Source: Tribonema minus (Eukaryota > Sar > Xanthophyceae > Tribonematales > Tribonemataceae). Taken from it: 64,000 bases of DNA. Position 1 is the first letter of the stretch. Each line of letters starts with the position of its first letter. A program made the translations under genes and the position numbers. Below, one piece after another: positions 7,301-60,514 of this stretch. The DNA is taken from assembly GCA_017506865.1 (NCBI GenBank), contig JAFCMP010000512.1, forward strand, positions 1-64,000, written 5' to 3'. A model generated the notes under the pieces. That model did no database searches. It was given only the letters and a program-made list of their open reading frames with translations, and was not told the origin of the DNA.

Positions 7301-10300
7301 CACATGGGAGATGCGATCGGCCTGTTGACGAGCCGTGCTGCGCAGAGCAGATGCCTGGGCCGTACGCCTGCCAACGTCATGTGCGCCGATAGCCCCCCCT
7401 CCCCACAGTCTGCCACGACCGCAGCAGGGCAGCTACAGTGCAGCAATTAGTGGAGCGGAAGGCAGCATGTATGGGCGCAGTGTCGCCATGTTGTGACCGA
7501 AGCTGGCCTTATCAAAGGGTAGTTGTCGTGTTCGCATGTTCACAATGACAATGGTGTGGTTCAGGTGCTAATGGCCAAGTGAACACCCAAGGCGGCCCCT
7601 TTGCTGTGTCAAACGCCAGTCAAGCCTCATCACGCAGAGCCTCGCCTTGGAGTTGGACAAAGGGTGATGTTGAAATTGACGTCAGGCACAACCTACGCTT
7701 TGCTGCTGACTGAGCCGCATTGCCATGTGTGGTGACCCGCCTCCTCGTACCCCAGGGTGACAGGGCCGCAAACAGCAAGCCACACTGCCGCTGTGTCAAT
7801 GCAGTTGAAGATGCACTTGAAGTAGCACCCCGGTGACGCTCCTGATCCAGCGCCTGCGCAGGCAGCGCTCCTGCGATCCGAAACTCTGGGAACGCCGCCG
7901 CAAGCGTAGCCACACCGCCCGCCTGTCACGACCCTGTCCAACCTTCAATCCTAACTTCAACACCTACCTGACCTGCTGTACGCTGCTGTACCGGAACCTA
8001 CAGAGCCGACCAGCCACAACGTACTGTGTACCAGCCCAGGCGGATGAAGGAAGTCCATGCTGTACTGAATGCCGTACAGCACGCACCCGCATTCCCGCTC
8101 GATACATGATGCTCATCTTCATTGATTGCCATGACCAGGTAGTACTGGCATTGAACTAGCACGGGCGTCATTGGCAGTGCTGGCACCTCAAACTGTTTGT
8201 CAGTTACAACTGTTTTGGCAACCGGCCCATGATGGCCGCACTTCCCTGACGCGCCTCACATTGTTTCACAGAGCGCTATTCAACTCCACGGCTTGGGGTG
8301 GATACAACAAATTGGCAGTAGTTGAAGTCGGAGCCTGCCATCACACCAGACCTGCTGCCAGGAATACCTCAACAGAAGTGAAAGTTGTAGCGACTCATCG
8401 GCAGTGCATCCAGCATCACCTCGAACATGAACACAAGAAGCTTTGCCTAGTAGACTCTCGTTACGATCCTCTTTGAATTGAGTTGAGAAGGATCTCTACT
8501 GTCTCACCTGCAGCGCCTCCACCACCGCCCCAAACATGATGACAATTTATATTCAACGGTACGTATAAAGTGTTGTCAAACCTGCAGCACCTCTCAGCAG
8601 CGCCCCAACCATGAGTAGTACTGCTATGTGGTACCATACAATGGTAGGCCCCCCAAAAGGGCATTTGAATTCAAGGGTAGGTCTGCCTGTCTCACCTGCA
8701 GCGCCTCCACCACCGCCTCAAACATGAGCAGTATCGACAAGTCCTTACATTAAAGGGTAGATGGGAACACAGAAGTGTCTACATGCAAGGGTTAAAGGAT
8801 ATGCTATAGGCAGGTATACTGTAATGAAATGCAAGGGTAGGTATGTTATGCTGCCTCACCTGCAGCGCCTCCACCACCGCCTCAAACCCCGCGGCGGACG
8901 CCTCATCCGCGTCGTCCGACGTGCGCACCTTCCACTCAAACCCCAGCGCGTCCAGCTCCGCGCGCCGCTCCTCGCGCCCCTGTGCACATTATGCACGCAT
9001 GCACATTTAAGGGAACAGCAGTCAGCGGCAGGGCCGGGTGAAGCATGCTCCTTGAGATTTGAAGTTGAGCTTGAAGTTCATACATTGCCGGGCGAAGCAT
9101 GCTCCTTAAGATTTGAAGTTGAGCTTGAAGTTGATATATTGGAGATTGAAGACACCAGCGCGTCCAGCTCCGTGTGCCGCTCCTCGCGCCCTGCACGCAT
9201 TATGCACACGCATGCGTACGCATTGAGCACTGACTGCCGGTTGACACAGCGCGCAGTGACAGCGCAGGGACCTGAACTTCAAGTTCTGCCGCACGCCGCG
9301 CTGCCACATGTTTACGGTGTGATGGCAGTACGGCCGGACGTAGCATGCTCCAAAGATTTGAAGTTGAGCTTGATGTTTGAAGTATGAAGTTGAGCTTGAA
9401 GTTCCTCCACGCAGAAGAAACAAAACCGAGCGCATCCAACAACTGAATATATGGCGTGATTCACACGTTGGCACTCCCTTTGTTGTTAGAGATTGCTGTA
9501 CAGGGTGCAAGACATCTCAGTAGAACCATCGTGCACCCAGTGCGCATTGATACACTTTTCCAGTGCTTACACAAGAAACATGTGGACTCAGTGGTAGCAC
9601 GCTGGACGACCACCATCTGGGGCCTTTCGCGCCCTACGCGAGAAAAAGAGTACGCGCGCAATCAACCGCGCGCGCCGTGTCACGCCACCTGCAGGTACCG
9701 GCCCGTGCTGCGCATCGCATTGAGACACTTTCAAGGTGCTCGTTAAACATACACGGACTCTCTGGCAGCAGGCCGCAGCTGGCCTTCTTCGCGCCCTCTG
9801 CGAGAAATTGCTGATGGGAAAAGGACACGGAGTCTGCGTGCGCGAGGCCACCTGGAGGTACCGCCCCGTGCTGCGGATCGCGTTGACGCGCATGCCGAGC
9901 TTGTCGCCGTGCAGCGCCTCCGGCCACGGCGCCTCCGCGGGCACGGCGAAGCGCGACGGCACGCGCGTGTCGCCGTGCAGCGCCGCGTACGTCCGCAGCC
10001 CCGTGACCACCGCCTCCCAGTCGTCCACCTTGGGCTTGCGCGCGGGGCGCCCCACCTTGGCGGGTGGTGCTGCTGCGGCGGCGGCGGGCGGCGCTGCCTC
10101 CGCTGCTGCCGCGGCGGCGGCGGTGACTGACGGGGCCTGCTGCGGCGGGGGCGTGTGTGTGTGGGGGGGGAGTGATGCTGCTGTTGTGTGGAGGAGAGCG
10201 CATGCACAAGAGGTGTGGCGCGAGAGGCATTGCTCAACGGCCTCGGCACTGACGTGCAACTTCAACTGCAACTGCTCCGGCAGTGAGGTGTGAACTTGCT

Positions 10301-17675: not shown

Positions 17676-20600
17676 ATGTTCAACTTTTTGTTCCAGGGTA
17701 ACCTGGGGGACATCATCGCCCCCATCCAGAGCCCGGAGCAGCAGCTCCTGATCGCAATACAGAACAGGCAGATGGACAAGGCAAGTCGCTGCTGAAGCCA
17801 TCAACAAGTGACTGTGTGCATCAAAATATCATTGTTATTGTGACGCAAGAGGCAATGGTCTGCATGTACGCGTGTCTGCGCAATACAGCTGTTGATGTGG
17901 CGCTCCTCTCCAGTGCGCGCGCCTGCAACGTACAGCAACAAGGGCTGCTGTGTGTGTGTTGTGGTCATTGTCATGACGTGCCCTCCCATCGTCTCTCATG
18001 CAGGTGCAGCAGCTGCTGGAGGTGCAGAGGGTTCCTGCTAACTGTCGCAACCAGGTGAACGACTTGGCAGTACAACGCCGTAAGGCACCAACTACTCAAG
18101 CTAGTCTAGTGCAGCCTTGCTGGAGATGCCAGTGCCCGCCCTAGCACGTCACTCCTGTGCTGCCGGCAGCTGCACAGCGAATTGCACTCGCCGCGTCAGC
18201 CATCATTGCGGCTATCCCTACCAAAGTTCTCGGCTGGTCAAGCGTCTCCTCATGGCCAAACCACTTAGTGAATGCATAATCAGCAGAAGTCGATCAGCTC
18301 AACCTTTCAATGCCTCTTGCTGGGCTACCAGGACCGTAGGGTCAAGGGTCTTGAGAACACACCGAGTTGGTTGACGGGCTGGCACATGAGCTCTGACAGC
18401 CATTACTGCTGCAGCCATAAGCCTGATTGCAACACTGAGTGCATCAGCCGCTGCACATTTGTCTTGGCTTCGCGAGCCACTCTGCTCATTGCAGCTGAAC
18501 GGACCCCGTTGAACGATCACCACGGGAAGCGATAGGCGTAGCTGCCGTGCTGTTGCGGTATGGAGCCACCAATGCACATTCTGGCATGCGCGACGTGCAG
18601 AAGGCAGCCCCCATCTACTTGCGTAGGGCCTGTCCCGAAGTGCAGCAGGCGCTTCTGTTCGGTGGCAGCGATCAGCATACGAACGCGCTGCTGCCGGCGT
18701 CCAGGCCCGTCAACATGCGCTGCGCGTTGTGCTCATGGCGTGTGCATATGCATCTCCGCGTATGCTCGTAGGCTCCCCCATAAGCAGCCGCGTCAGCAGC
18801 ACCGGCTCGTGCGTATCGTTCAGCTCTGCGCGTTCCGCCGAGCACTACCCCTGCCCAAACCTATTCTGACAGGCTAGTTGTGGACATACGTGCACACACT
18901 CTCAGCCGCGCCCGACCGCTGCCGCGCACCGCATCTTGCGCACGCGGCGGAGCGGTGCTGCCGCGGCGTGCGTCCACAATCAGGGTTAGGGTTAGGGTTA
19001 CAGACCCACATGCTACTCCTCAACCGCACCTCGCCGCCTGGCGCAGCTGCGGCGCCGGTACACACACACGCACACACACACACACACACATCCGTACATG
19101 CGCACGCTCCTGCGAATGGCAAGCAGCGGAGAGTCGCCGCAAGGCGCATTGTACGCGCGCGTGACGGGCCAGGCGCGCCCGCTGCGGCGCCCGCCCACAT
19201 CTCCACACTAGGAGTATACACGTATACTACCCCGAAACCACGCATCGGATCCCTCGCGCTCCTCGCGCGCGCGCGCGGCAGAGCGGCGTGACGCTCGTGC
19301 ACACATACCCCCTCATGCATACATGAGGCCCTCACGCACACATACCCCATCACGCATACCTACCCCCTCATGCATACATACCCCCTCACGCGCGCGGCAG
19401 AGCGGCGTGACGCCCGTGCACATGGCGTGCCAGGCGGGGCTCGCGCACGCACATACACACATTGCATATATGCATACATACCCCTGAACCGCGCCCACAC
19501 TGCGCCTGCTCGCTTGCGTTCGCCGCGCGCGCGGCAGAGCGGCGTTACGCCCGTGCACATGGCGTGCCAGGCGGGGCTGCAGGAGCTGCTGCGGCGCCTG
19601 GCGGAGCTGGGGGGGGACCTGGCGGGCGCGGACAACAGCGGCAACACGCCGCTGCACTACGCCGCCAAGGGCGGGCAGATCGACACCGTCAAGTGAGTCG
19701 GCGGCGCGCGGAGTTACACCCAAAGCGTACAGTAACTGCTGTGTGGTGGCGTGTCTGTTGAAGCAGAGGGCGTCGAGTGCGTCGGAGGCGCGCGCGTTAC
19801 AGCCAAAGCTTGCGATGAGAGCGGCGCGCTGGACGGAGTGCCTCGCCATAGTCTGGTCGACGCGGGGAGGCGACAACGCTCCTCAGAGTAGCTGTACTAC
19901 TGCATGGCCTGTTGAAGCGGGGAGGCGATGCTCCACACGGTAGGTATGTATTCAGGGCAGGTACTACTGCAGACTGCAGGGAGGTGGCACTCCTCCACGC
20001 GAACGTGCGACCAGGTGCAGAGGCGGGGGTGCCCCCCCCAGATTACACACTTGCGAGCATCATAGTCTAATGAAGCTGAGAGCGTTGAGTGAGTGGGAGG
20101 CACGCGCGTCGCCGCCACGGTGTGTGATGCACGTGGCGCGTTGGAGTGCCTCGTCATAGTCTGTTAAAAGTGGGGAGGTGACGCTCATCAGGGTAGGTAG
20201 GTATACTACTGCAGACTGCAGGGAGGTGACGCTCCTCGTGAACTTGCGACCCGCCGCAGAGGCGGGTGCCCCCCCCAGACATACACTTGAGAGTGGAAGA
20301 CGGAAGAGACACGTGCGCGCGCGTGTGTGAGCCGTTTTCAATCGGTTGCGGTTGCCCTAATGTGCTGGTAGGCGCAAGCCGCGAATTTGGGTTAGGGTAA
20401 CCCTGAGAGGGCGGCAGGCCATTGAGCGCTCTGGCGCTATGGACGGGACTGGACAGCTTGCGCACAGCGCGCGCGGTTTGGTGCTGGGCACACGGCGTAT
20501 TATGTGCAGCGCATGGCCGACTTTGAGGGTGCTGCCCATGTTAGGATTAGGGTTAGGGTTAGGGCAGGGGTTAGGAATGCGGGGTGAGGGTGAGGGCTAG

Positions 20601-21386: not shown

Positions 21387-24300
21387 TCTGCCCCCTCGCT
21401 GCTGCGCAGGTGGCTGCTGGAGCTAGGCGCGCGCGTGGACGCGCGGAACGCATCGCGCCAGTCGCCATACGACCTGGTGAGCAGCGCTCCGCAGCCGCCC
21501 CTGCCCGCACGCATGCAGTATCCATCAATCTGATCCCTACTTTGCCAGTGTGAGATGAGGGGGCGTGTGCTCTGAAGCCTGGGTGCGTGCGGCATGCGTT
21601 CGTTCGCGCCGTGGACGCGCGGAACGCGTCGCGCGAGTCGCCGTACGACCTGGTGAGTGCGCACGCTCGCGCCGCGGCGGCAGCGCTCTGCTTGTTTGGC
21701 CGCGCGGCGCCGCTGCGGCATGTGCGCCTGCCAGCGAACAGCCTCCATCGTGTACACAGATGGAGCCTGTGCCTGTGTCGTGACGCCCGTCCGTATGATG
21801 CAGAAGACGACGAAACCCAGTCTCATCTGTCGCACAAGAAGGAGTGGTGCGCGCGCACGCCGCGGCGGCAGCGCTCCGCAGCGGCCCCTGTCCGCGCGCA
21901 CGCGGCAACAGAGATGATCTTCAGCACGCGATGATGGGGCTCCGATGAGAAAGAAGCCTGGTTGTTGCATGCGCTTCTTTTCTCCCGATCCGCACGCACA
22001 CACGCAGCGCCTCTATTGCAAGGAGAAAGAAGATGGGCGGAGCGCGCGCGTGCCTCCCCTGCTTGCGTCCTTTCCAAGTCAAAACCCCAAAACTGAAGTC
22101 TGAGGTTCAACTGCAGTTTCTTTGGCACAAGGTGGGCCACGAAAAGGTCAGCGCCTGCGTTGCGCGCGACCGTGAGTCCGCTTGCCCGTGGACGAGCAGG
22201 TCGCGGCGCTGTTGACACCGGAGACTGTGGAGCGGGTCAGGCAGATGGTGCCAGCCCTGCACAAGTTTGATCCGGACAACCACGGTAGTGCCATAGGCTG
22301 GCGTAGGCTGGCGTAAGCATAGGCTGGCGTAGGCTGGCACTACGGTGGTTGTCCAGTCCGGATCGTACTTGTGCAGGGCTGGCACTACCTGCCTGACCCG
22401 CTCCACAGTCTCCGGTGTCAAAAGCGGCGCGGCGCACGCGGGTCCGCCGGTGCGCACGCACGCCAGCACCGCGAGACTCTCAGCAGCGGTGAGTTCCGCA
22501 ACTCCGAGCTGCACCCCGCCTGCCCCCCCCCCCCCCCCCCCCCTGCGTCCCCCTGTGCGCATTGCTCAGGCGACCAGTCAGTGGTGCGGCAGTACCTGGT
22601 GGGGGTCGCTTGCAGGGGCCGCCAGTGGCATGCGCAACGCTGCCGCCACTCTCGCTGCCGATCGCTTGCGTGCTGCCCTCTCTGCGGCTGACACATTCTT
22701 GCCACGTCTGCCGCTGCCGCTCCCTCCCCCCCCTCAACCCCCGCCCCCTGTGTCCCCTTGTGCGCATTGCTCAGGCGAGGTGCGGCTGCAAATCTTGAGC
22801 TCCACGATGCCGTGCTGAGCCCTGCCCCCCGCCCCCCCAACCCCAACCAACCCCCCCTGCGTCCCCCTGTGCGCATCGCTCAGGCGACCAATCACGTGGT
22901 GCGGCAGTACCTGCTGCCGCTGCAGCTCAAGGCGGAGGCGTCGAATCCGTCCTCGGCGGCGGCGTCGCCGTACGACTACCCGGGCGCGCAGGCGCAGCAG
23001 CAGCAGCAGTACGCGGCGCCGCTGCCGCCGCCGTCCGCCGCGCTCGAGGCGCTGATGCAGGTGGGGGTTTGCTGCTGAGTGATGACACTTGGTTGAAGTT
23101 GACGTGCCGTTGCTGCTGCCGTTTGCGGCGCGCGAGGCGCTGACAAAGGCGAGATTTGCACTTCAGTGATGAGTGACACTTGGAATCTGAACGTAATCCC
23201 AATTTTAAGTCTGAATACACTTGAAGTGTGAACTGACCCTTAGTCCCAAGTTGAAGGTGGACTATATTCCCAGCATGGCATGTGCCTGGCGGGTAGATGA
23301 GGTTGCAGGAAGAACGCCATCGGTAGGCCATCACCGATGCGCAGGCAAGCACGCCGCTGATCGTGCCCGCCTGCTTGATCTCACTTCACGGCCCCGCACT
23401 GCTGTGCAAACTGCGCGCCTCACGATTGATTGCAAACGCAGCGGCGGCGCTGCTGAGCCGCTGACGCAGCGCGCTCCCGCACGACTCTCGCCGCCACAGG
23501 CGCACAGCGGCGCGCCGCTGCCGCTGCCCGGCGCCGCCGCCGCGTACAAGCCGCCGCCGGTGCCGCATCCCATGGGCATGCAGCAGCAGCAGCAGGGCGG
23601 GGGAGGCATGTACCCCCCTCTCTCCCCCATCCTGTCGTCCCCCCTGCCGACCCCCGCTGGCCCAGTCAATCCCCCTGCGGCGTCGCAGCAGCAGCAGCCA
23701 CAGCAGCAGCCGCCGCCGCCAGCGGCGGTGCCGCCGCCGCACATGCCGCCGCCGGTGGCGGTGCAGACGGCAGTGCCGCAGGCGCTGACGTCGGCGCCGA
23801 CGCCGCTGACACCGCCTCCCCCAGGTACTGTACGCTTTGCATGCGAGGTTTTTGGGGACTGTGGGCTGTGAAAGCGCAGGTCGCGGTTTCACATAAAGCT
23901 TTAGCGCTGTTTTGTGAGGGTTCGCACAGGTACGCGCGATATGATTCCGTGCGCGCTGTGAGAGTGCCAGTCACTGGTTGAGATATGGTCAGCAAACATT
24001 TTGTTGCATACAGGTAGCGCTTTGAGCGTGGATTAGGCACAAGGACATCCTAGTACTGATCGAACCACAGGTGACTCCGTGCTAATCGACTAACTCAGAT
24101 GTGCAGCCCCTCCTCCGGGGCCGCTGCCTCTGGTCTGGCTGGTATCAATGGCAGCACATGTGTTCCGTTGACTCTTGACTCACTCCTGCACATGCGCAGT
24201 CTTCTTGGGGGCGGCGCCGTCGGAGGGAGGCTGCGTAACTGCCACTGCGATCCTCCACGCCGCAGTCGCATTGGCGTGACCAGGAGGCGTGCGCGTCAAT

Positions 24301-41147: not shown

Positions 41148-42330
41148 CTAACATGGAGGCAGAGGCGCTGCCAGAGCTGCGGCAGTCACGCTTGAGACCC
41201 AGTCGCGTCGCTGGCTATCTCGACTGGCATGGCATGGCAGTGGTGCAATCGGCTGCCCGTGGCAGAGGGCCTGTGCGATGGCGCGCCTGCGAAACAGCGG
41301 GAGAGCAGCGACGATTGTTGGCATACATGCTGCGATACACATGCCCAGAGTTTTGGTGGCTGCGTTGAATTTGAAGAAAAAAATGTGCGCTGGGGCCTCA
41401 TACAAATGCCTCATAGTAATCACTGGATGGCAAGGCCCTATGAATGAATGGTGGGCGCTTGCATCAGACTCGTCATCTGTTTTTTAATCACCGGCGCCAG
41501 CACAATTCTTTGAAGTACACATGTGATCCTCGTTGCATACACAATACACTTGCTCAGAATATGCGAGAGTTTGATGACTGATCCGCCATGCAGCACTGGC
41601 TGGCAGCAAAGCACATGTGTTCAGCACCATCAGCAATCAGCAACACAATCAAGGTTGCAGGCTCATTGAGGTGATCAGACAAATAGTGCACATAATTATT
41701 CATCAACTGCTTTTAAATAGAGAAAAGCAGTGCTTGTCATGGTCTGCTTCGGGCGTGCTCAGACATCCAAGGAAGATATTCTTGCCCCATGGCTCAAGCT
41801 CCAGTGCGAGTGGGGCGAGCATCGGCGGTCACTGCGAATGTTTATGGGAAAAGATATCATCATGGCACGCCCGTGTGAAGCAGACGTCTGACTGGCCGTA
41901 GCTGGAAACGGCGGATGAGCTGCTGACAGGCAAAACACATTGCTGACACAAAAGGCAAAAAGCTTCTGAGACAACTACTTCAAAGTACACATCTGTTTCA
42001 AAGACTGTTTTGGAAGACGTGATCAGATCATGCTACTCATGCTGTCACTTGAGTTAAGCAGGCCAAAGGGCGCTCTGCCCGATAAGGCATGTAATGTAAC
42101 AGGTGCAGCAGTGACTTGCCTTGCTGACTCATGCTACTCATGCTGTCACTTGAGTTAAGCAGGCCAAAGGACGCTCTGCCCGACAAGGCATGAAACAGGT
42201 GCAGCAGTGACTTGCCTTGCTGACTCGCGGCGCTCAGCGCAATGTACTGGCACTGTGTAGCTCCTGGCGCCAACCGAGAGCTTGCATGTGGCACTGCTGT
42301 GACGAGCAAACAGAAGAGGATGACACGCAT
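41148..42330 (-). CDS. Possible secreted hypothetical protein (uncertain exons)
   Basis: Not recognised. A first exon at 42216-42330 has a textbook signal peptide, MRVILFCLLVTAVPHASS, and ends at a GC donor (CAAG|GCAAGT). Possible later exons are a protein-like stretch near 41700-41830 (LALELEPWGKNIFLGCLSTP) and an open frame from about 41480 to 41148 (EAPAHIFFFKFNAATKTLGM). I could not prove the joins. The donor of the first exon is duplicated in the tandem repeat at 42030-42226. Signal-peptide evidence is fair, the rest is weak. Confidence 0.3.
42030..42226 (-). repeat. Two 101-base tandem units carrying a splice donor
   Basis: The two units begin at 42030 and 42131 and differ at only a few sites. 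Each contains minus-strand GAGTCAGCAAG|GCAAGTCAC, the edge and GC donor of the candidate exon at 42216-42330. Confidence 0.85.
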
Positions 42331-44736: not shown

Positions 44737-44981
44737 GACCGCATTGTGCTCCTCAACAACCTTCGATCATTTGATGACTCTCTCCACACCGATGATGGCC
44801 GTACACTGCATGCAGTAATTCAAAACATCAGAGGCATCGCAAGATGAGTCGACTCTATTTCATCACCAACTGCAACTGCAAGTGCAACGGACCTCACTTC
44901 AAGTCCTACTTGAAGATCGTAGTGCTCGACGCACTGCTCGTTAGCTTTACCTGCCATTACAATTAATTGATAGTCGAAAGC

Positions 44982-47900
44982 ATGAAGTCGCCAAAACACC
45001 AAAAACTTGCGCGCAAGAAGCAACGCAAGCTCAAGCACAAGCTGCGGACCGAGGACGCCGGCGCACTACAAGCTGCATCAGCGAAAGTGGCTTCGCCGCC
45101 GGGCAAGAGCAAGAAGAAGGCTGGAATACGCGCTCGTAGTGAAGGTAATCTGCCTGGGAAGGGGTCAGACGCAGATCATGTCGTGGACTTCTTTGCAAAG
45201 GCGAAGTCATTGCTGGACCTTGCAGCGGCGGCGATGGCGCGGGGGCAGGAGGACGAGGCTGTTGCCACACTGAGAGAAGCCGCCCAGGTGAATGCTCTGC
45301 TCGATGTGGATCTGTGTCATTGCTTCATGCTTCGACTCTGTGGATTCGTAGGTCCTCATGCCAGCAGTGCGCGTGATGGTGGAGAAGAGCGACGCTTTTT
45401 TCTACCAACTTCTTCTTGGCGCGGCCACCTTGAGCTTTATCCAGTGACACCTGCATGTACCGGCTCACCTGTCATTCCTAAAAGCTGTGAGACTGCAGGC
45501 GAGTCATACACTGCCTCCAGGCCTCCAGCGCCTCGACTGTATTTGTGCTTTGCCGCCTCCGCGAGCCTGCCTCTCGCGGCGGCATCATTTGCGGCAAGCG
45601 CTCCTTGCGTCCCCCCTTGGCGTGTCCCCTTGGCCGCCTCCGCAAGCCCGCCACTCACGGCGACATCTTCTGCGGCAAGCGCTCCTTGCGTCCCCCCTTG
45701 GCGTGTCCCCTTGGCGGCAGGCAGGCCATTACCAACCTTAAGTTTGACCCCCAGCATTCCAGGACTTTGCGCAGTTCACTTCGGTTCCCAGCGTGAGCCC
45801 GGGCTACGAGTGCGTTGTGACCCACCCCACTGAGCCAACAGCAGGCATGCACGCGCAGCAGCCAGCGACGGCACGCGCCGAATGCAGGCACTGGTGCCCA
45901 TGTAGCTGCCCATCCCCCCCCCCCCCCCCCCCCCCCACACACACACCGCCACCACCCCCACACTCCCCCCCTGCAGGCCTGCCCCGGCTGCGTTCAGGCG
46001 CGCGTCGCGCTCGCCAAGGCGCTGCGGCGGCAGGCCGCGAGCCAGGCGCAACTGGACGAGGTCGAAAGCGAGCTGCGCGCAGCGCTCGACGCTGCTGGCG
46101 GCAGCGGCGTTGGCGGCGGCGGCGACGACGATTTGGAGAGCGCCAGCGCGCTGGAGGCGCTGCAGCTGCTGGCATTCCACCTGTGCCAGGAGGGGCGCGA
46201 CGCCGAGGCGGAGCCGGCGCTGCGCGCGCTGCGCAAGACGTACAGGTGCGGCGGCAGTGCCTCGTTTTTTGATTCACGTGCAGCGTCGCAGCGCCTGAGA
46301 GGCGTGACGACGACAGTCATGGTGAGGCGCCGCTCGCGCTACGCGCGCTGCGCAAGACGTACAGGTGCGGCAGCGGCGGCGGCGGCAGCAGCGGCAGCGC
46401 CTTGTATCGCGAGTCACGTGCGGCGGTGTCGCAGCGCGCGAGAGGCGCGGCGGGGACGCGCAGGGTGTGAGGTGTTGGGGGTAGCGAGGGGGTCGGCGGT
46501 TCATCCGCCACGAGCGCTGAGGCTTTCTTAGGGTTAGGGTTAGGGTCCGGGTCAGGATTGACAAAAGTGCAGGAGGGGCGCCGCTTGCGCCTGTGACGCG
46601 CGTGCCGAGCTGTGCGCGTGGCAGCGGCGCCGGCAGCGGCGGCGGCAGCGGCGGCGGCGGCGGCGGCGGTAGTCGAGGTGCATCTGGCGCGGCGGCTGCA
46701 CATGGCCAGCGCTGCAGTGACCGCAAGCTGAAGCATGTGGCGAGCGATGCAACGGCCGCGCGCGGAAGTGCAAATTGTGGCGCACCTTGGCGTACGCGCA
46801 CGTCGAGAGTTTGCGGGGATGGGGCGTGTGCGTATGTGTGAGATTTGGGCGAGGGTTAGGTGTGTGCGCAAGTTTGCCTGTGCTGCTCGCATTTGGCCTC
46901 CTGCCGCATTCATGGGCAAGTGCTGCTGCTGTGGGGCCTCATTGTCGACCGCAGTCTGCGCTCACTGGGCGCGTCAGCAACAGTGCAGATTCGGCGCTCC
47001 GAAGCCGCATTTGTTTAGCGTGTTCTGGAAGCCAGAAGCCCCTTGAACCCTAGCAGCACACCGCGGCGCCCGTGCAGATACGTTTCAGATGCCGTCGGCA
47101 GCGGTGCAGGAGCGCTGCGACGTATCGCTGACCGCGGCAGTGGTGATGAGCTCACAGGCATTCTGAAACGGCGGCGCTGCACGCATGGCCACACGACAAA
47201 TATGCGTGCGCTCTGTCCCACGGGCTGTGCCAGGATGCGGCCCTAGTGCCCATGAGCGTCGGGGAATGGATGGGGGGGGGGGGGGTGATGGGTACGTGTA
47301 GGGTGGGAATGGATGGGTGGGGGGGTTGATGAGTATGTGTCGGGGGGGAATGGATGGGGGGGGGGTTGATGGGTATGTGCAGGGGGGAGGGGGGGTTTGC
47401 TCATCTGCTACGTGCATGTGTTGCGTTAGCGCGCCAACTTCAACCCCCCGCAAGGCTCATGGACACGATTCTGCTGGTCGCTGCTGCGCGCGCGGTGCGC
47501 CGCAGGCTGAGCCGCGAGGCGCTGTGCGTCAAGGTTCCGCATGCAGACGTGCGTGACGTGCTCATCAGCTGTGCACGTGCGTCGCCTCCGCATGCGTCAG
47601 CCGTGCTTCAACGAGGCCGGACACGCGCCACCTCTCACGCCTTTTAACCCCCACACTGCTTATAAATAGACACCAATTCTGCCGCTCGCTGCTGCGCGCT
47701 TGTTGCGCCGCAGGCTGAGCCGCGAGGCGCTGTGCTACGAGCGGCCGCACTGACGGGTGGCTGGGGGGCAGGGGGAGGGATGATGCGTGTGTGTGTGCGG
47801 GCAGGGGGTTTGCTCATCTGCTGCGTGCATGCGTTGCGGCAGCCCTGGACCTACCGCCAACTTCAACTCTCCGCAATGCTCATAGAAACGATGCTGCTGG

Positions 47901-50900
47901 TCGCTGCTGCGCGCAAGTGCCGCAGGCTCAGCCGCGAGGTGCTGTGCTACGAGCAGCCACGCGCGCCGCCGCAGAAGGACCGCGGCGGCAGCACCAAGCA
48001 CGTGCGCATACTCGACGGCGCGCTGCCGCCGGACATGTTCGCCATGATGCAGGTGGGCATGTTTGTATATCTGGCGCGCTGCCCCCGGAGTTGTCCCCCG
48101 GGCCCCTCCCCTTCCCTTTTTTAGCCGCTGGAGGGTATGTAGAGGGGGGTGCCAGGGGACAGCCCCCGGACATGCTGGCCATGACGCAGGCCGGGGCAAG
48201 CGTGTAGACATCTGGCGCACCTGGTGTGTATGTGTGTGTGCGTGCATGTGTGGTCACTAGTAGGTGGGTAGGTATCTGGTGGGCGCTGCCCCCGGACATA
48301 CCGGCCGTGATGCAGGTGCGGGCGCGCGTCTGCATCCCCGGCGCACTTGCAGGGTATGGGGGTGTGTATCTGGTGCACTAGCGGGCAGGCATAAGGTGCG
48401 CGTGGGCGATAACTGTACCTGCATGCATCTGGTGTGTGTATGGGCGGGGCGCTTCGCGTGTGTGTTCAGCATCTCTGCAGTCGCCTACGCGCTCGCCTCC
48501 TGCCGCTTGTGGAACGAGAAAGGGTACGCAGGGGCGGCGCGTCCCACAGTGAGACCGAACCGTAACCCTAGACCCTAAACCCTAACCTGCAGCTAGACCT
48601 AATCTGAACCCGAGTCAAAGCGCACCGGACGGGACAGCGCGCACAGCTAACCCTAACCTTAATTACCCTAACCTTAATTTCAACCGTAACCTTAAGGTTA
48701 GGCTCACCACGCCACTCCACGCCGTGTATGTGGTCGTGCTCAGACTTCGCGCTAAGCGCTCTATTTCATGCTGCTTGATGCTTCACTTCATTGAGGTGCA
48801 TGTGCATCGCTACTGCATATTTTGTGTGTTATCAAGCGCTTGCGCAGGGAGTGAACTCAAAGAACGCTCTGGACCCTCGGCGCCCTCGAGGCCCTGTAGG
48901 TACAGGTCCATAATGTCTGACGGGTCGCACTTCCGCTTTTTCCACACATGCTCAGTCGACATTTGTGCCAGGCGCGCCCTTCCGGCATGACTACGCCTAC
49001 CTCAATACATACTTCATTTCGCTGAAGTATATACTTCGAAGTGTAGTGTCAATGTACAATGTGCGTACTTGTGAAGTAACTGGCCGCCTCATCGCCGCTG
49101 CCGCAAAGTCGGTGTTAGCGTCGAGCGCGCCCTTCTGGGCTGACCCTACCCTTGCAGGCCTTTAAATTACAGGCCGAGAGTACCAGCAAGCGGCCTCATT
49201 GCTGGCGCTATTCCCAACCCTAAGAGGCCTCTGCAGATGCAGGTCGAGAGCACCAAGGAGCTGTCTCGCCTCTGCTGCCGCAAGTCCGCGCAGTCGGCAT
49301 TCGCGTCGGGCGCGCCCTTCTGGCCCTCACCCTTACGCTGAAAGGCTTCGAACTATACAAGCGGAGAGTACCAACGAGCTGCCTCATGGCTTCTGCCGCG
49401 CGCCGCACAGACCGCGTTCGCGCCGAGCGCCCCCTTCTGGCGCGAGCACGCGTACCACAATACATACTTCAAAGCAACACATCAATGTACTTGACGTGAT
49501 GCTTGATTACACCTCATTTTACAGAAGTATCAATGCTGAACATTCAATGTGTGCACAGTTGTGAAGTGACGGGCCGCATCATCCCTTGTGCTGCGCGCTG
49601 CGCAGACCGCGTTTGCGCCGAGCGCCCCCTTCTGGCGCTAACCCTATCCCGAGAGGCCTCTGTAGATACAGCTGAATGAGTACAATGATTATCAATGAGC
49701 TGCCTCATCGCTTCTGCCGCGCGTTCACGCAGTCGGCATTCGCGCCGGGTGCCCCCTTCTGGCGCGAGCACGCGCACCACGTCTCAACTTTGGAGGCTCA
49801 CCTTGTACTTCACCTCGTACTTGCTGTGTGTGATCATGCTTCATCTCACTGAAGTGTACATTACTTCCATGCGCACTCGTGAAGTAACGCGCCACCTCAT
49901 CGCTCCGCCCGCACAGTCGGCGTTTGCGCCAAGCGCGCCCTTCTGGCGCGAGCACGCCTACCACGACCCCGCCACCGGCTACTTCTCGTACGTGCACGCG
50001 CTGGGCGGCGGCGCGCCACGCAGCGGCCTGGACCAGGTCATCCGCCACATTCACGCGCTGGTCTGCCGCAAGCAGCCTCAGGCAAGTGCGTTAGTGTATG
50101 CACTATATATTCACTTGAATATACGTAGTTCTTTGTGTATAGGTCATCCGCCACTTTTACGCGCTCCTCGTCTGCCGCAAGCAGCCTAAGGCACGTGCCT
50201 GTGTACATGTATATGTATATCGGAGTGCTTTATAGAGGTCGTGTGCCACATTCACGCGCTCGTCTGCCACAAGCAGCCTCAGGCAAGTGCCTATATATTG
50301 GTACTTCAAGGATATGATTCAGAGCACCAAATACATGGAGGTCATACGCAACGTGCCGCAAGCAATCCCAGGCAAGTGCTTCTATTAGTGTATGATGTGA
50401 AGACCTGTATGAAGGTCATGCAGCGCGTGCGCGCGCTCGTCCGCCGGGAGAAGCCTCAGGCGAGTGCCAGCCCCGCCGCTGACGCTGACGCAATCGCTCG
50501 CTTCTGCATGTGAGGTACCGTGTAGACGCCATAGGTGCCGTCTACACAGGTGCCGTGTAGAGGCCATGCGCCACGTTTACGCGACTTCCGCGCTCGTCTG
50601 CCGCAGGCAGCCTCCGACGAGTGCCTGTATGTGCTTGAGAGGTACACGATATGAGGTATCCATGTCGGTACGCACCGGTCATATGCATGCGCTCGTGTTG
50701 CCGCAGGCAGCCTCAGGCGAGTGCCTATACATGCATAGCCTTCAAAGAGCTGTGTGTTCTGAGGCCACATGGCGCATGCCCGTGCGCGTGCGGCCCTGCG
50801 AGTCGTGCTTGCATCGGTATAGATCACAGTTACACATGAGGGCCGTGCGGCACGCGCTCGTCCGTCGGAAGCCACCTCAGGCATGCGGCCGATGCGGACA

Positions 50901-53900
50901 TAGCGTCGCGGCAGGGAGTATTACGTGTGCTTGGAGGAAATTGCGCTCATCTTTTGCGCGCTCTGTCCACACATCCAACGGCGACGACAACGCCGCTTGG
51001 ACCAGGCCATATGTCGCGCGCGCGCGCGCTCGTCTGCCGCTAGCAGCCTCTGGCGCGTGCCAACCCTGATTCCGATGCTGATGTTGAATTAGGCATGCAA
51101 TGCAATCCATCCTTGCGCTGCTGCGCAAGATCAACAACAAGTCATGAGTCAATGAGTCATGAGGGATGCGCCGGCCCTGATGACTGTTCCGAGCAGTCCT
51201 CGAGCGTGCCTGCGCCGCCGGATGATGGTTCTCTCAGAATGTATTCAGCGGCGCAGCGGGCTTGCTGCGCGCGGAAGTCCAAACCTCGGGTTAGGGTTAG
51301 GCGCCGCCCGCACGTCCTTGTTGAGCGCCATCTCCCTCGCCAGCCTCGCGGCGACGATCAGCGGGGGGGCGCCACCCGCCCGTACTTGTTGAGCATCGCT
51401 ACGCCCAGGGGTTAGGATTAGGGTTAGGGTTAGGGTTAGGGCTTAACTGACCTGTGCTGCCGTCCACGAGCTGTGCGCCCCCCCCCTCCCACCCCCCCCC
51501 ACCCTCCGCTCCCCCCGCGTCAGGCGGAGCAGGCATGCTGTGCGGAGTGGTGTGCGCACTGCCCTGTTGAACATCACCACGTTCACTTGGGCTAGGGCAA
51601 GATAAGGGTTGAATTGATCTGCGCTGCCGTCTGCGACTTCCCCTCCCCGCCCCTCCCCCCCCCTTCCCCCTCCCTGCGGCAGGCAGAGTAGGCGTGCTTT
51701 GCGGAAGTGGTGGGCGCACTGCCCGGTTGAGCATCTTAGAACTAGGGGTAGGGTTAAACTGACCTGCGCTGCCGTCTCCCCCTCCCCCCCTCCCAGGCAG
51801 AGCAGGCATGCTTTGCCGAGTGGTGGGCGCACTGCCGGCCGCACTCGTCGGGGCACCAGCTGCACTTCGACTCGGACAACGAGGGCCAGGGGACCGTGAG
51901 GAACCCGATCCTGAGCAGCGTCATATATTTACACGAGGATGAGGTGGGTGCGCAGCGGCGACGTGAACTTAGTACAAACGTTTTTTTGCAGAGTACTTGA
52001 TGAAGAACCTATGTAGGATGAGTGCACTGTGCACGGACCACTTTGTGGAGCGTTGTAACCGCTAACTTAAGTTTAACCCTAACGAAGAACGGCGCTGGCG
52101 CATCACATGCAGACCGACTGCATGGCTGTACGCAGCAACGTGCCTCAACACTTGAACTTTCAACATGTGCTGTCTTTTGAACTTCAAGCGTGCGCTCTTT
52201 GCGGTGGCGGCCTCGAAATCGTAGGGGCGTGCACGAATATTCCTGGACTGCTTCCCTGTGGAACACTGTGGCTGCTGCGCACAGCGCAGGTGCAAGTGCC
52301 TTCACGCTTGAACGTTACGTACTCTTAGAGTACTTCTCGAAGAACCTTGGCCATGTGCCGTGTACATAGACTTTGTGGAGCGGCACACGCTGCGTCACAG
52401 ACTCTCGCAGAGCAGTTCTAGAACAATTCAGGCGAGTGCATTTGTACACCTACCGCTTTGTGGAGCGTCAACGGCGCTGTTGCATCCATCACATGCAGAC
52501 CGGCTGCACACTGGGAGCAGCAGTGCTCCTTGCCCCCGCCAGCGGCATAATCTACAGGCGCGGTTACTGCAGCTCTTGTCACGGACAGTTCTCGGCGCAG
52601 TGACGCAGACAGCGAGCGGTGCGTGCTGATACATGCACGGGGTGCGCATCAGTGGATGCCGCTGTACGTGCGTCAGCCGCGATTGCAGAACACTCGCAGA
52701 GCGCCGCTGCTGGCATTGGCGCTGCTGCGGCGCCCCTGGCTGCACGGACTGCCAGCTCCTGCACTTTACCCCATCTCATCTCCGCTGCGCTCTCGCGCGT
52801 TTCATCAGGTGCGCGTGCCACGAATTCCTCAAAGGCGCCACAGGAACTTCTCAGCGACCACGGTGCACTGACGGCGTCGAGGCCTCCCCCCGCCCCCCCC
52901 CCGCCCCCTGCCCCCTTCACTGTGCCCCCCCCCTTTTCTGCACAGACCGTCGGCGGCCCGACTCAGTATTAACAGATAAAACTCTCAGCGACACGATCTG
53001 ACTTCGCTGAACACCGCCCCCCCCCCCCCCATCCCCTGCCCCCTTCACTATGCCCACCCCTTCTGCGCGCAGTCCGTCGGCGGCCCGACACTCACTTCGC
53101 CCTGTCTCTGATGTGCTCTCCAGCATCGCACTGGTGCGCAAGCCATGAAGTCCATCAAGTTCTCAGAGGCACCCCTCAGCGACCACGGTGCTCTGACGCC
53201 ATCGAGCCCCCGGGAGGCGCCACCCGCCCGTACTTGTTGAGTATCGTATCACCATGCTCGCTTAGGGTTAGGGCCAGGTTAGGGCTAGGGTTGAACTGCC
53301 GTCTGCGCGCTGCGTGCCGCCCGCTCTGCCCGCAGGCAGAGAACAGGCGTGCTTCGCGGAGTGGTGGGCGCACTGCCGGTTGAGCATCACCACGCTCCTA
53401 AGAATAAACTTCTGGACTGACCTGCGCTGCTGTCTGCCCCCCCCTCCCTCCCCCCCCCCCGCGGCCCGTACGCAGTCCGTCGGCGGCCCGACGCTCATGA
53501 CCAACCAGCGCCTCGGCGCGCGCCTCGCCGACCGCGGCTGGCTCGTCTTCCCGCGCGCGAACCGCCTCGTCTCCTTCGACGGCGCCGTGCTGCACGGCGT
53601 CGTGCCGGGGCGCTCGTACGCGCCGCCGCCGCCGCCGCCACATGAAAGCGGCGGCAGCGGCGGCAGCGGCAGCGGCGGCAGTGGCGGCGGCGGCAACGCC
53701 GCCGGCGGCGCGGCGGGCGCGCGGCGCGTCACCTTCATGGTGGCTTTCTGGCGCGCCATCCGCACGCGACCGTCGCCGGACGGTCGGCCGGGGCCCAGCC
53801 AGCCGTTCCCGTACAAGGCGGCGGCAGCGGCAGCGGGGCGCACGTGGCAGCGGCCGCTGCTGCCGGTGCGCGAGGGGTGGGGGGAGGACGCGGCAGCGGC

Positions 53901-54036
53901 GGCGGCGGCGGCGGCGCCGCGTGTGGTGCTGCCGTTCCCGCTGCGCCGCGTGTGGGAGGCGGTGGGGGAGGAGATGACGCCCGTGGAGGCGCTGTCGGGG
54001 CCGCCGCACTACAACCTGTGCTTCCAGGGCTTCTGA
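44982..54036 (+). CDS. TPR plus Fe(II)/2-oxoglutarate dioxygenase-like protein
   Basis: Six exons (44982-45287, 45977-46245, 47926-48052, 49917-50081, 51797-51943, 53476-54036) total 1575 nt, 524 aa. A very basic N-terminus (MKSPKHQKLARKKQRKLKHK) could be a nuclear or nucleolar signal. TPR-like helices follow (LLDLAAAAMARGQEDEAVAT, CPGCVQARVALAKALRRQ). The catalytic part has WWAHCRPHSSGHQLHFDSDN, whose HFD is the HxD iron motif, then SSVIYL, VGGPTLMTNQRLG and SFDGAVLHGVVPG, whose His is the distal iron ligand. RRVTFMVAFW supplies the Arg expected to bind 2-oxoglutarate. The family occurs in microalgae; its substrate is unknown. The exon at 49917-50081 ends in a GC donor (CAG|GCAAGT). The introns are packed with copies of the neighbouring exon edges. 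Confidence 0.8.
45914..45936 (+). repeat. 23-base C run upstream of an acceptor
   Basis: The C run followed by CACACA and CCACCCCC leads to the acceptor CTGCAG at 45971-45976. Confidence 0.8.
46215..46400 (+). repeat. Copied 3' edge and donor of the second dioxygenase-gene exon
   Basis: GCGCTGCGCAAGACGTACAG followed by GTGCGGC occurs at the true exon end (46226-46252) and again at about 46346-46373. Both are followed by similar intron sequence (GAGTCACGTGCGGC or a variant). Confidence 0.75.
47440..47970 (+). repeat. Three copies of a dioxygenase-gene exon 5' edge with acceptor
   Basis: GCCGCAG|GCTGAGCCGCGAGG-type edges at about 47500-47535, 47707-47742 and the real exon at 47926. Each is preceded by GCTGGTCGCTGCTGCGCGC or similar and by a CATGGACACGATTCTG-like phrase. 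Confidence 0.8.
48005..48350 (+). repeat. Three copies of a dioxygenase-gene exon 3' edge with donor
   Basis: The exon end (LPPDMFAMMQ, then GTGGGC) recurs at about 48150-48190 (PPDMLAMTQ) and 48288-48322 (PDIPAVMQ, then GTGCGG). Confidence 0.75.
48560..48710. repeat. CCCTAA-type telomere-like cluster
   Basis: Imperfect CCCTAA and CCTTAA units are spread over 150 bases, more decayed than the other clusters, in the intron between 48053 and 49916. Confidence 0.65.
48960..49940 (+). repeat. About seven copies of one exon 5' edge with acceptor
   Basis: The start of the exon at 49917 (CACAG|TCGGCGTTTGCGCC, encoding SAFAPSAPFWREHAY) is repeated at about 48968, 49106, 49285, 49409, 49597 and 49728. 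Several copies extend through CCCTTCTGGCGCGAGCACGC. Spacing is 120-190 bases, and intronic ACTTCA/GAAGT sequence between the copies is repeated too. Confidence 0.85.
50040..51062 (+). repeat. About nine copies of one exon 3' edge with donor
   Basis: The end of the exon at 49917-50081 (VIRHIHALVCRKQPQ, then GCAAGTGC) is repeated near 50144, 50237, 50339, 50413, 50562, 50667, 50830 and 51004. Donor-equivalent bases vary among GCAAGT, GCACGT, GCGAGT and GCGCGT, so some copies keep a usable donor. The spacer after each copy (GTGCC-TGTAT) is also shared. Confidence 0.85.
51413..51445. repeat. Telomere-like TTAGGG run
   Basis: About five TTAGGG units, four of them perfect, in the dioxygenase-gene intron, followed by CTTAACTGACCTGCGCTGCC-like sequence that recurs beside the acceptor-edge copies. 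Confidence 0.75.
51520..53395 (+). repeat. Four copies of a dioxygenase exon 5' edge with acceptor
   Basis: GCAG|GCAGAGCAGGCATGC-type edges (AEQACFAEWWAHC) occur at about 51534, 51671 and the true exon at 51797, and again at about 53330 downstream of the real exon. The false copies end in a stop after CACTGCC.GTTGAGCATC. Confidence 0.8.
52035..52530. repeat. Direct repeats within a dioxygenase-gene intron
   Basis: ACTTTGTGGAGCG recurs at about 52040, 52372 and 52457, and CATCACATGCAGACCG at about 52102 and 52488, each in similar order. No coding function was recognised. Confidence 0.6.
52930..53500 (+). repeat. Three copies of the last dioxygenase exon 5' edge
   Basis: GCAG|TCCGTCGGCGGCCCGAC (SVGGPT) occurs at the true exon (53476), at about 53069-53092 and, with ACAGACCG, at about 52941-52962. 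Each is preceded by a C-rich tract. A shared block containing CTCAGCGACCACGGTGC occurs at about 52848 and 53176. Confidence 0.8.
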
Positions 54037-54774
54037 TGAACTTCAAGTGCTGCGTGGGCGCACGCTGGGAGCAGCGCCGCGGCAGCAGCGCATGGCGGCG
54101 GCGGCGGCGCGCCGCAGTACCTCTTCAAATTATATACGTATGAGTATGAGTTGAAGAAAACTTGTGCTGAAGCTGGGCACAGCAATGCGAAGGGAGGACT
54201 CTTCGCCCTCAGATGCGCGTTTGTGGCACAAGTGTTTGCTTCCTGGACTTTTGATCTCGCAGTGACTGCGAAGCGACTGCGAAGCGAAGTGCACACACAG
54301 GCAGAACACAATCAAAGGATTGTGTGAAATCTGCTCAAGCGTCGTCGCATCGCTCGCTGCGTGCTGCCGCCCTTCGCTTGCTGGTCTGCTCAGTGCGGCA
54401 TTGAGGTGCGCCCACTGGTGATGCTCAGCATAACAGCGGAGCGCTGCTGCGCTCATCGGCGCTTTTGATCGCCACTGCTGCCCGCCAAAGTGCAATATGT
54501 GACTCAACAAGTGCACATTGGTGGTGTCGAGTGATGTGACAACACTACAAGGAGCAGTTGAGTGTCCTGAAGGCCTAAATCACCAAGTGCACATTGGTGA
54601 TGTCGAGTGATGTCAAAACATCACCAGGAGCAGGAGCAGTTGTGTACTCTGAAGGCTTGTACTGCATGGGGCGCTTGTACCACGTGGCACAGTAACTGCA
54701 GCGTGGCTGTTGTGCCGGTTGAGTGTCAGTTACGATTGCCTGAGTGTTCCCACTCCCGCATTGGGTGCAGCAGT
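54037..54774. other. Spacer downstream of the dioxygenase gene
   Basis: No gene recognised. A direct repeat, CAAGTGCACATTGGTG followed by GTGTCGAGTGATGT-like sequence and AACA(T/C)(T/C)AC, occurs at about 54508 and 54584. Confidence 0.45.
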
Positions 54775-58525: not shown

Positions 58526-59464
58526 GGAGGTGCGCCGCGCGCCGCCGCCGCCGCGGACGGAGTCGTGCGTGTGCTGGTGTGGCGCTGGTTGGCTGCCGTC
58601 GTTGGCGGGGGTGTTCACGTTTTTTCCGGCTGGGGAGGGGGGGTGGGGAGGGGGGGTGGGGAGGGGGGGGGTGGGGGGTAAAGCCTTGAGGGCTTTAGAG
58701 GCCGGCATGGAGTAGATTGGCGACTTTGGAGTGGGGTACATTGCTCGGCGTCTGTAAGGTTGTGCGAAACTGCACAGATCCTGATACGGCAGCACACGCT
58801 GTGAGACATCGTGTATGCGCGCGGGGGGGGGGGGGGGGGGGGGGGGGGGTACCACTGTACGACAAGTCCGAGTCCATGACTTTTAGCATAGCATGTTCCA
58901 TACAGCATAAAGTTTGTGGTTAGATGAGGTATCATGACGTTGGCCCCATGACAACGGTAGCGCTCACGATTTGTTACACTCGCCCGTATCGCCCCTTTGG
59001 CACGCCATTTCACCTCCAGGGTAGTAACTTGAAGTTTTTGGCATGTCGCCCGCGGCAGCGCCGCGCCGCACAGCCCACCTGCGCCAGCTAAGTGACTGCG
59101 TTTTCACCTGTGCTTGTGCTGGAAGTTTCTGTTCTGCGCTTGGGTGTTCTTACGTCTGCGCCAACGTTCAGATTGCATTGCACTTGAAGTAGTCGACTAG
59201 CGCCATGCACAATGCGCATGAGATGAACATATTCACAGTGGCATGACACCATCCCTGCATGCCACAGGTAGTCGATCAAGTAGGCAGTGACTAAAGTCTC
59301 TGCAACTCTCATTTGTCAACGTTACATTTTAGTGCGCACACATGCACTATGCATGGCAAACCAAAGGAGAAATAATTTTAATTTTTTATTGTAAAATTTG
59401 TTGGGCACGTCACCACCCTGACCTATGTCCGCGGGGTCCGGCGGCAGTGTAGTATTTCTGCAGC
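58526..59464. other. Spacer between PLGG1 and ALDH genes
   Basis: Contains G-rich blocks (58635-58680) and an uninterrupted 27-base G run at 58823-58849. No exon recognised. The ALDH promoter should lie in the AT-richer last part (about 59330-59400). Confidence 0.5.
58823..58849 (+). repeat. 27-base G run
   Basis: Uninterrupted G homopolymer in the spacer between PLGG1 and the ALDH gene. Confidence 0.85.

Positions 59465-60481: not shown

Positions 60482-60514
<33 letters not shown>

Follow-up and report, generated by a model that had tools for sequence, protein, structure and literature searches.

Zhuo et al. reportedly traced alternatively spliced human introns to tandem arrays in 2007. 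How tandem duplication may create introns is also the subject of the tandem genomic duplication model (Rogers 1989), in which, as summarised in later accounts, a new intron is made from a duplicated exonic AGGT (PMC3443670, PMC4974935). In the RdRp gene of potato, a tandem duplicate of an intron-exon structure is described as having inherited the branch site, tract and acceptor (PMC4974935). Two further systems bear on the subject: introners, which are credited with large-scale change of eukaryotic intron content (PMC9860276), and the tandem NAGNAG and GYRGYR sites and intron sliding, where competing splice sites are described as lying a few bases apart (PMC2891723). Here we describe arrays of repeated exon edges, complete with splice sites, in the introns of a Fe2OG-dioxygenase-like gene of Tribonema minus, a xanthophyte and hence an ochrophyte alga. 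The window analysed covers the initial 64 kb of contig JAFCMP010000512.1, which is 800,606 bases long and belongs to a 158-Mb draft assembly in 554 contigs (GCA_017506865.1). Our results suggest, with a probability that we would put at about 0.83, that existing introns of this alga grow longer through generic tandem duplication of 100 to 250 bp, while selection acts on the spliced exon.

Two arrays surround the exon at 49917-50081 on the forward strand, the strand of all features of this gene. Probes of 45 exon and 15 intron nucleotides were searched against positions 44900-54100, with a threshold higher than any score reached by 100 stretches of other loci. The acceptor edge has six copies upstream, in an array spanning 48950-49773 (48950-49000, 49101-49138, 49286-49324, 49403-49455, 49590-49638 and 49730-49773), the acceptor of the exon itself at 49917 being the innermost. 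The donor edge has eight copies downstream, in an array spanning 50143-51060 (in order outward, 50143-50198, 50238-50290, 50354-50379, 50415-50467, 50580-50624, 50673-50724, 50851-50883 and 51025-51060). An earlier note on this DNA had counted about seven acceptor-edge and nine donor-edge copies, the working copy included, and these above-control scores agree with that count. With the flanks of unrelated exons as controls, z is 23.0 for the donor edge on the downstream side and 0.2 on the upstream side; for the acceptor edge it is 16.7 on the upstream side and 1.7 on the downstream side. The similarity of the exon edges to the adjacent intron is real, as is the claimed confinement of acceptor copies to the upstream side and donor copies to the downstream side; none of the edge copies of this exon sits on the wrong side. 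Measured from the junction out to the farthest copy, with the spacers counted in, the acceptor array occupies 967 of the 1864 bases of the preceding intron and the donor array 979 of the 1715 bases of the following one. Adding 266 and 288 bases for the arrays that belong to the neighbouring exons brings the shares to approximately 66% and 74% of the two introns. Tandem Repeats Finder, which the note had suggested running on the introns, misses these arrays, and its sole entry within their span, a 25-bp run of period 12 at 49798-49822, is unrelated; by this program the junction arrays are not homogeneous minisatellites or satellites.

That the arrays might be a peculiarity of one exon is contradicted by a wider sample, in which they were seen at many junctions and the same pattern recurs at several unlinked loci. 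This sample comprised 19 stretches of about 232 kb in all (the window, L005-L017 and L019-L023), with 126 exons predicted by a gene finder that used codon use and splice matrices, was started from the window exons and was blind to repeats; 96 of these exons entered the edge tests. At z > 5, donor edges had a copy downstream in 20 of 73 cases and upstream, on the wrong side, in 3 of 73, whereas acceptor edges had a copy upstream in 13 of 82 cases and downstream in 0 of 82. An alternative rule, that the score lie above all controls, gave 21 right-side versus 3 wrong-side donors and 15 versus 1 acceptors. Two of the three wrong-side donors match sequence that overlaps an adjacent predicted exon, which would follow if the gene finder had taken an outer copy for an exon; the third match is weak. 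The difference in frequency between donors and acceptors (20/73 and 13/82) is not significant (p = 0.12). A stricter threshold, applied only where at least 600 bases of flank were present, gave 69 copies at 31 junctions (20 of at most 85 donors and 11 of at most 96 acceptors). Eight of these copies, at one junction, belong to a homogeneous 236-bp satellite of 15 units at 179-3744 of L021, which at 3731 runs over the end of a predicted exon on the minus strand; this exon was excluded from the counts of decay, probe class, spacing, unit extent, spacers, matrix scores and dinucleotides. The pattern extends to two kinesin genes that were picked by homology (many exon matches, from 132 matches) before any copy search, their splice points being taken as the best matrix sites near the homology edges: expected-side copies occur at 8 of 22 junctions and wrong-side copies at none.

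The alternative that survives best, although we consider it unlikely, is that selection maintains the outer copies as alternative exon ends or mini-exons, spliced into some messages. On the splice-site matrix, scores above 3 persist in 37 of the 43 donor copies and in 13 of the 18 acceptor copies, while 4.3% of all GT/GC dinucleotides score as plausible donors by this standard. By eye, an AG also precedes the start of similarity in seven of the eight donor copies of exon 49917-50081, but the same is true of the working exon, so this can be descent. The pattern of change argues against such use. Mismatches between copies and working exons are skewed over codon positions 1, 2 and 3 (0.105, 0.072 and 0.151), mostly because the working exon changes only where the protein allows (working-exon-private changes of 4/122, 0/125 and 6/123). 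Copy-private changes, counted in arrays of at least two copies, are near even over the three positions (57/514, 52/537 and 60/492, or 0.111, 0.097 and 0.122) and match those of the intron part (55/450, or 0.122), and most indels in the exon parts (20 of 27) have lengths not divisible by three. GT or GC has been retained in 38 of 43 donor copies, where the divergence of these copies predicts 36.0, and AG in 14 of 18 acceptor copies, where 14.0 are predicted. As the splice dinucleotides are kept at the neutral rate, nothing suggests that the copies are maintained for use. Nor do the extra copies, with their near-even private changes, show the coding constraint of alternative or mutually exclusive exons. 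Selected conservation of the exon-edge parts was considered and rejected; a constant working exon with decaying copies fits. Judged by their sequences, the outer copies look like decaying debris and seem to be neither maintained nor purged as splice sites. Of the earlier suggestion of a reservoir of decoy or alternative sites, what holds is that most donor copies still score as plausible; a store of decoys kept by selection is not supported.

The structure of the copies identifies most of them as tandem units rather than inserted exon edges, since the spacer beyond the junction is also homologous at 21 of 30 junctions (at one of them merely level with the best control). At these 21 the arrangement is that of head-to-tail duplication. 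Similarity extends over at least 0.8 of the spacer at 18 of 30 junctions, often beyond one unit; stretches with larger indels end early in this measure, hence the separate spacer test. At exon 49917-50081 the acceptor-side spacer scores z = 4.6, above all controls, and on that side the claim that copies keep local intron sequence stands. Copies lie at a median spacing of 152 bp (quartiles 122-186), and most are 75-98% identical. In 12 of 13 arrays the copy closest to the exon scores better than the outermost one (p = 0.0034), one further array shows a tie, and 52 of 73 within-array pairs are in the order in which the nearer copy scores higher. Such an outward loss of similarity is expected if each new junction-spanning duplication inserts next to the exon. 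Tandem duplication across the exon-intron junction and growth of the intron through it, both put forward in the note, are supported by these repeated spacers, by the sidedness and by the outward loss of similarity. Insertion of mobile elements or introner-like units that carried or duplicated long stretches of exon edge is, in our view, a very improbable source of the copies. It would fit the nine junctions at which the spacer is not recognisably repeated, but not the 21 at which the spacer belongs to the repeat, nor the 18 at which the extension takes in most of it, nor a spacing of about 150 bp. A search of genome DNA with the exon, rather than the intron spacers, as query gave at least four matches, all of those listed lying in the array.

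Less probable again, to the point of being negligible, is intron creation via tandem duplication of an exonic AGGT segment according to the Rogers model, to which the arrays had been tied at the outset. Many exon edges do carry AG/G, and the process at work here is tandem duplication. However, the donor and acceptor regions of the same intron are alike in only 4 of 73 introns; three of these are overlaps of the test windows in introns of 64-70 bp and the fourth is a doubtful split exon, leaving at most one real case in 73. Moreover, the copies sit at the edges of already existing introns. With the end-to-end signature practically absent, AGGT intron creation is refuted within this sample of 73 introns. 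An assembly or haplotype artefact, which the draft state of the 554-contig assembly might invite, merits no greater credence, because the copies are mostly 75-98% identical and lie on several contigs, and mis-joined haplotypes or collapsed repeats would not yield sided, age-ordered, decayed copies.

Junctions are not preferred over intron interiors as targets of duplication. Local copies were found for 21 of 98 junction probes (14/49 donor, 7/49 acceptor) and for 39 of 185 mid-intron probes, and a junction hot spot was rejected (Fisher p = 1.0). Probes in the intron adjoining donors and acceptors had local copies in 11 of 59 and 4 of 45 cases, respectively, those in other noncoding DNA in 13 of 205 and those in exon middles in 0 of 29. 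This test took 220 of 240 mid-intron and 220 of 444 other noncoding probes, and low-complexity probes were dropped (31 donor, 42 acceptor, 19 and 43 flanking-intron, 31 mid-intron, 12 other and 35 exon-middle). Repeat coverage is 0.205 in introns, 0.089 in other noncoding DNA and 0.123 in exons, the last probably reflecting exon edges and predicted exons that are copies. The median spacing of local repeats, with L017 and L021 excluded, is 209 outside introns (36 pairs) versus 238.5 within them (84 pairs), a similarity that points to one general duplication process. In the window, a young 101-bp tandem duplication, 92% identical and of the same size class, lies outside predicted genes at 42028-42226.

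The probable course of events is that local head-to-tail duplications of about 100-250 bp arise in noncoding DNA, presumably by slippage or unequal exchange, and are especially visible in introns. A duplication spanning one junction would double the exon edge together with its splice site. An intact message could be made only from the copy continuous with the full exon; selection would retain this innermost copy, while the outer one would turn into intron. Repeated rounds would push older copies outward, and the intron would lengthen from either end. The geometry of this process is sufficient to account for the sidedness, because a single-junction duplication leaves only one copy joined to the whole exon. 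What the data add beyond geometry is recurrence, since the arrays, as read from their sequences, indicate that junction-spanning duplication happened repeatedly. From protein homology we infer that the innermost sites are those used. Pairing of splice sites across the exon, or exon definition, would give the closest sites on either side an advantage; it probably explains the use of the inner sites and could explain why the arrays are tolerated. A broader proposal is that junction-spanning tandem duplication is a main and transposon-free route of intron lengthening in this algal lineage, with arrays that are age-ordered like growth rings and are tolerated because the spliceosome reliably takes the innermost of up to nine donors and up to seven acceptors, all much alike. 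We advance this proposal tentatively, as a possibility with the odds somewhat against it; if true, the arrays would put exon definition to a natural test and would also keep a reserve of splice sites standing by.

Several observations weigh against lengthening by generic duplication and selection. Probes within introns have local copies about 3 times as often as those in other noncoding DNA (39/185 versus 13/205, p = 2e-5), and this excess is unexplained by a generic process, although the other noncoding class may include younger transposon DNA and unrecognised introns. Loci also differ, the introns of L005, L007, L010 and L019 being without local repeats. Spacer homology is not above controls at 9 of 30 junctions, which include the nearest donor spacer of exon 49917-50081; its homology is marginal (z = 3.7, just under the best control), and for this spacer the retention of local intron sequence is only marginally sustained. 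One array is reversed, with its outermost copy scoring best (L011 5851). Within the Fe2OG-dioxygenase-like gene itself, an acceptor-edge copy of the exon at 51797 lies downstream, on the wrong side, at 53333-53379. Finally, the copy-private changes show a slight third-position excess after correction for base composition (60 observed versus 48.0 expected, p = 0.068). The region of the wrong-side copy has a further feature: parts of 51355-51838 resemble parts of 53203-53460.

The label of the array-bearing gene is taken from the names of relatives (e.g., P0050 and P0060); a Pfam search of its product gave no match at E 0.001. The exons at 45977-46245, 47926-48052, 49917-50081, 51797-51943 and 53476-54036 join into a single open frame ending with a stop. 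Alignment of the product with distant relatives crosses all four junctions and is ungapped at the first three, with a gap of 1-3 residues at the fourth in most of the aligned relatives. The first three exons are supported by the gene finder, the single open reading frame and the homolog alignment, and the last by the gene finder and the reading frame; the exon at 51797-51943, whose acceptor is at 51797 or 51801, was missed by the gene finder and is supported by the single reading frame and homolog alignment. Edge copies also accompany the other exons. The first has one donor-edge copy downstream (46324-46374), and the second has two acceptor-edge copies upstream (47499-47527 and 47707-47746) and two donor-edge copies downstream (48162-48206 and 48283-48318). 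The exon at 51797-51943 has two acceptor-edge copies upstream (51509-51563 and 51668-51723), and its donor-edge probe found no copy. The last exon has one acceptor-edge copy upstream (53068-53094, z = 7.1).

A deposited T. minus model, P0012 (hypothetical protein), matches this gene. Its start, at 47891-47925, lies in the intron directly before the exon at 47926, inside the span of the acceptor array of that exon, and it is without the exon at 45977-46245, although distant relatives support this exon. Junction-copy arrays can mislead annotation, and P0012, with its intronic start and missing first exon, is an example. The working donor of exon 49917-50081 is itself uncertain, being either a GC at 50082 or a GT at 50086, and the duplicated donor unit spans both. 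Joining GT 50086 to the acceptor at 51801 gives QPQAKQ, as in P0012, while GC 50082 and 51797 give QPQAEQ. Because the residue at this junction in seven relatives is K or R (four) or A (three) and never E, GT 50086 appears the more likely donor. The gene finder took GC donors in 14 of 73 predicted cases, some of which may likewise be a nearby GT.

Elsewhere in the window, two minus-strand predicted exons have edge copies. That at 1321-1498 has two donor-edge copies on the gene-downstream side, at about 1197-1256 and 1098-1158 as placed from their distances, and that at 8860-8979 has two donor-edge copies and one acceptor-edge copy, all on the expected side. On the plus strand, predicted exons at 19538-19692 and 22884-23060 have two and one acceptor-edge copies upstream, respectively. 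Short TTAGGG-like or related runs are scattered in introns (e.g., 51409-51441 and 48650-48679). Long C or G runs at approximately 60483-60514 and at 45915-45936 both stand shortly before acceptors, and another, at 58823-58849, follows the end of a gene.

The arrays of T. minus bear on how introns lengthen without transposons, the individual steps being legible in them. Selection holds the exon itself constant, and it serves as a standard for the exon part of every copy, so that copies remain identifiable and can be arranged by age. An exon surrounded by many similar sites in competition is also a natural experiment on splice-site choice. In a search of titles and abstract openings, with most subscription journals lying outside it, no sided, age-ordered arrays of junction copies were found described as a mode of intron growth. 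The human introns of Zhuo et al. are said to share the tandem repetition but not to consist of outward-decaying edge copies. Going by the sources cited at the outset, the Rogers model has in common with our findings a local tandem duplication that includes splice signals and a selection on the spliced product; it differs in that a new intron is made from AGGT, whereas in T. minus existing introns lengthen and the AGGT signature is practically absent. The NAGNAG and GYRGYR sites likewise offer several competing splice sites per junction but, as described, these are a few bases apart, against whole units of 100-250 bp here, where the working site need not shift. Introners are characterised as dispersed copies of one element, while the copies in T. 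minus are local and derived from the adjacent exon. The potato RdRp gene shares the tandem duplicate of an intron-exon structure but, as reported, was the site of a single event in which a new intron arose and the exon was changed (PMC4974935); in T. minus, with no sign of a new intron, the events are repeated, sided and age-ordered in several genes. Tandem duplication is, in short, a known mutational process, and its outcome here is unusual and informative: the lengthening of introns, not their creation.

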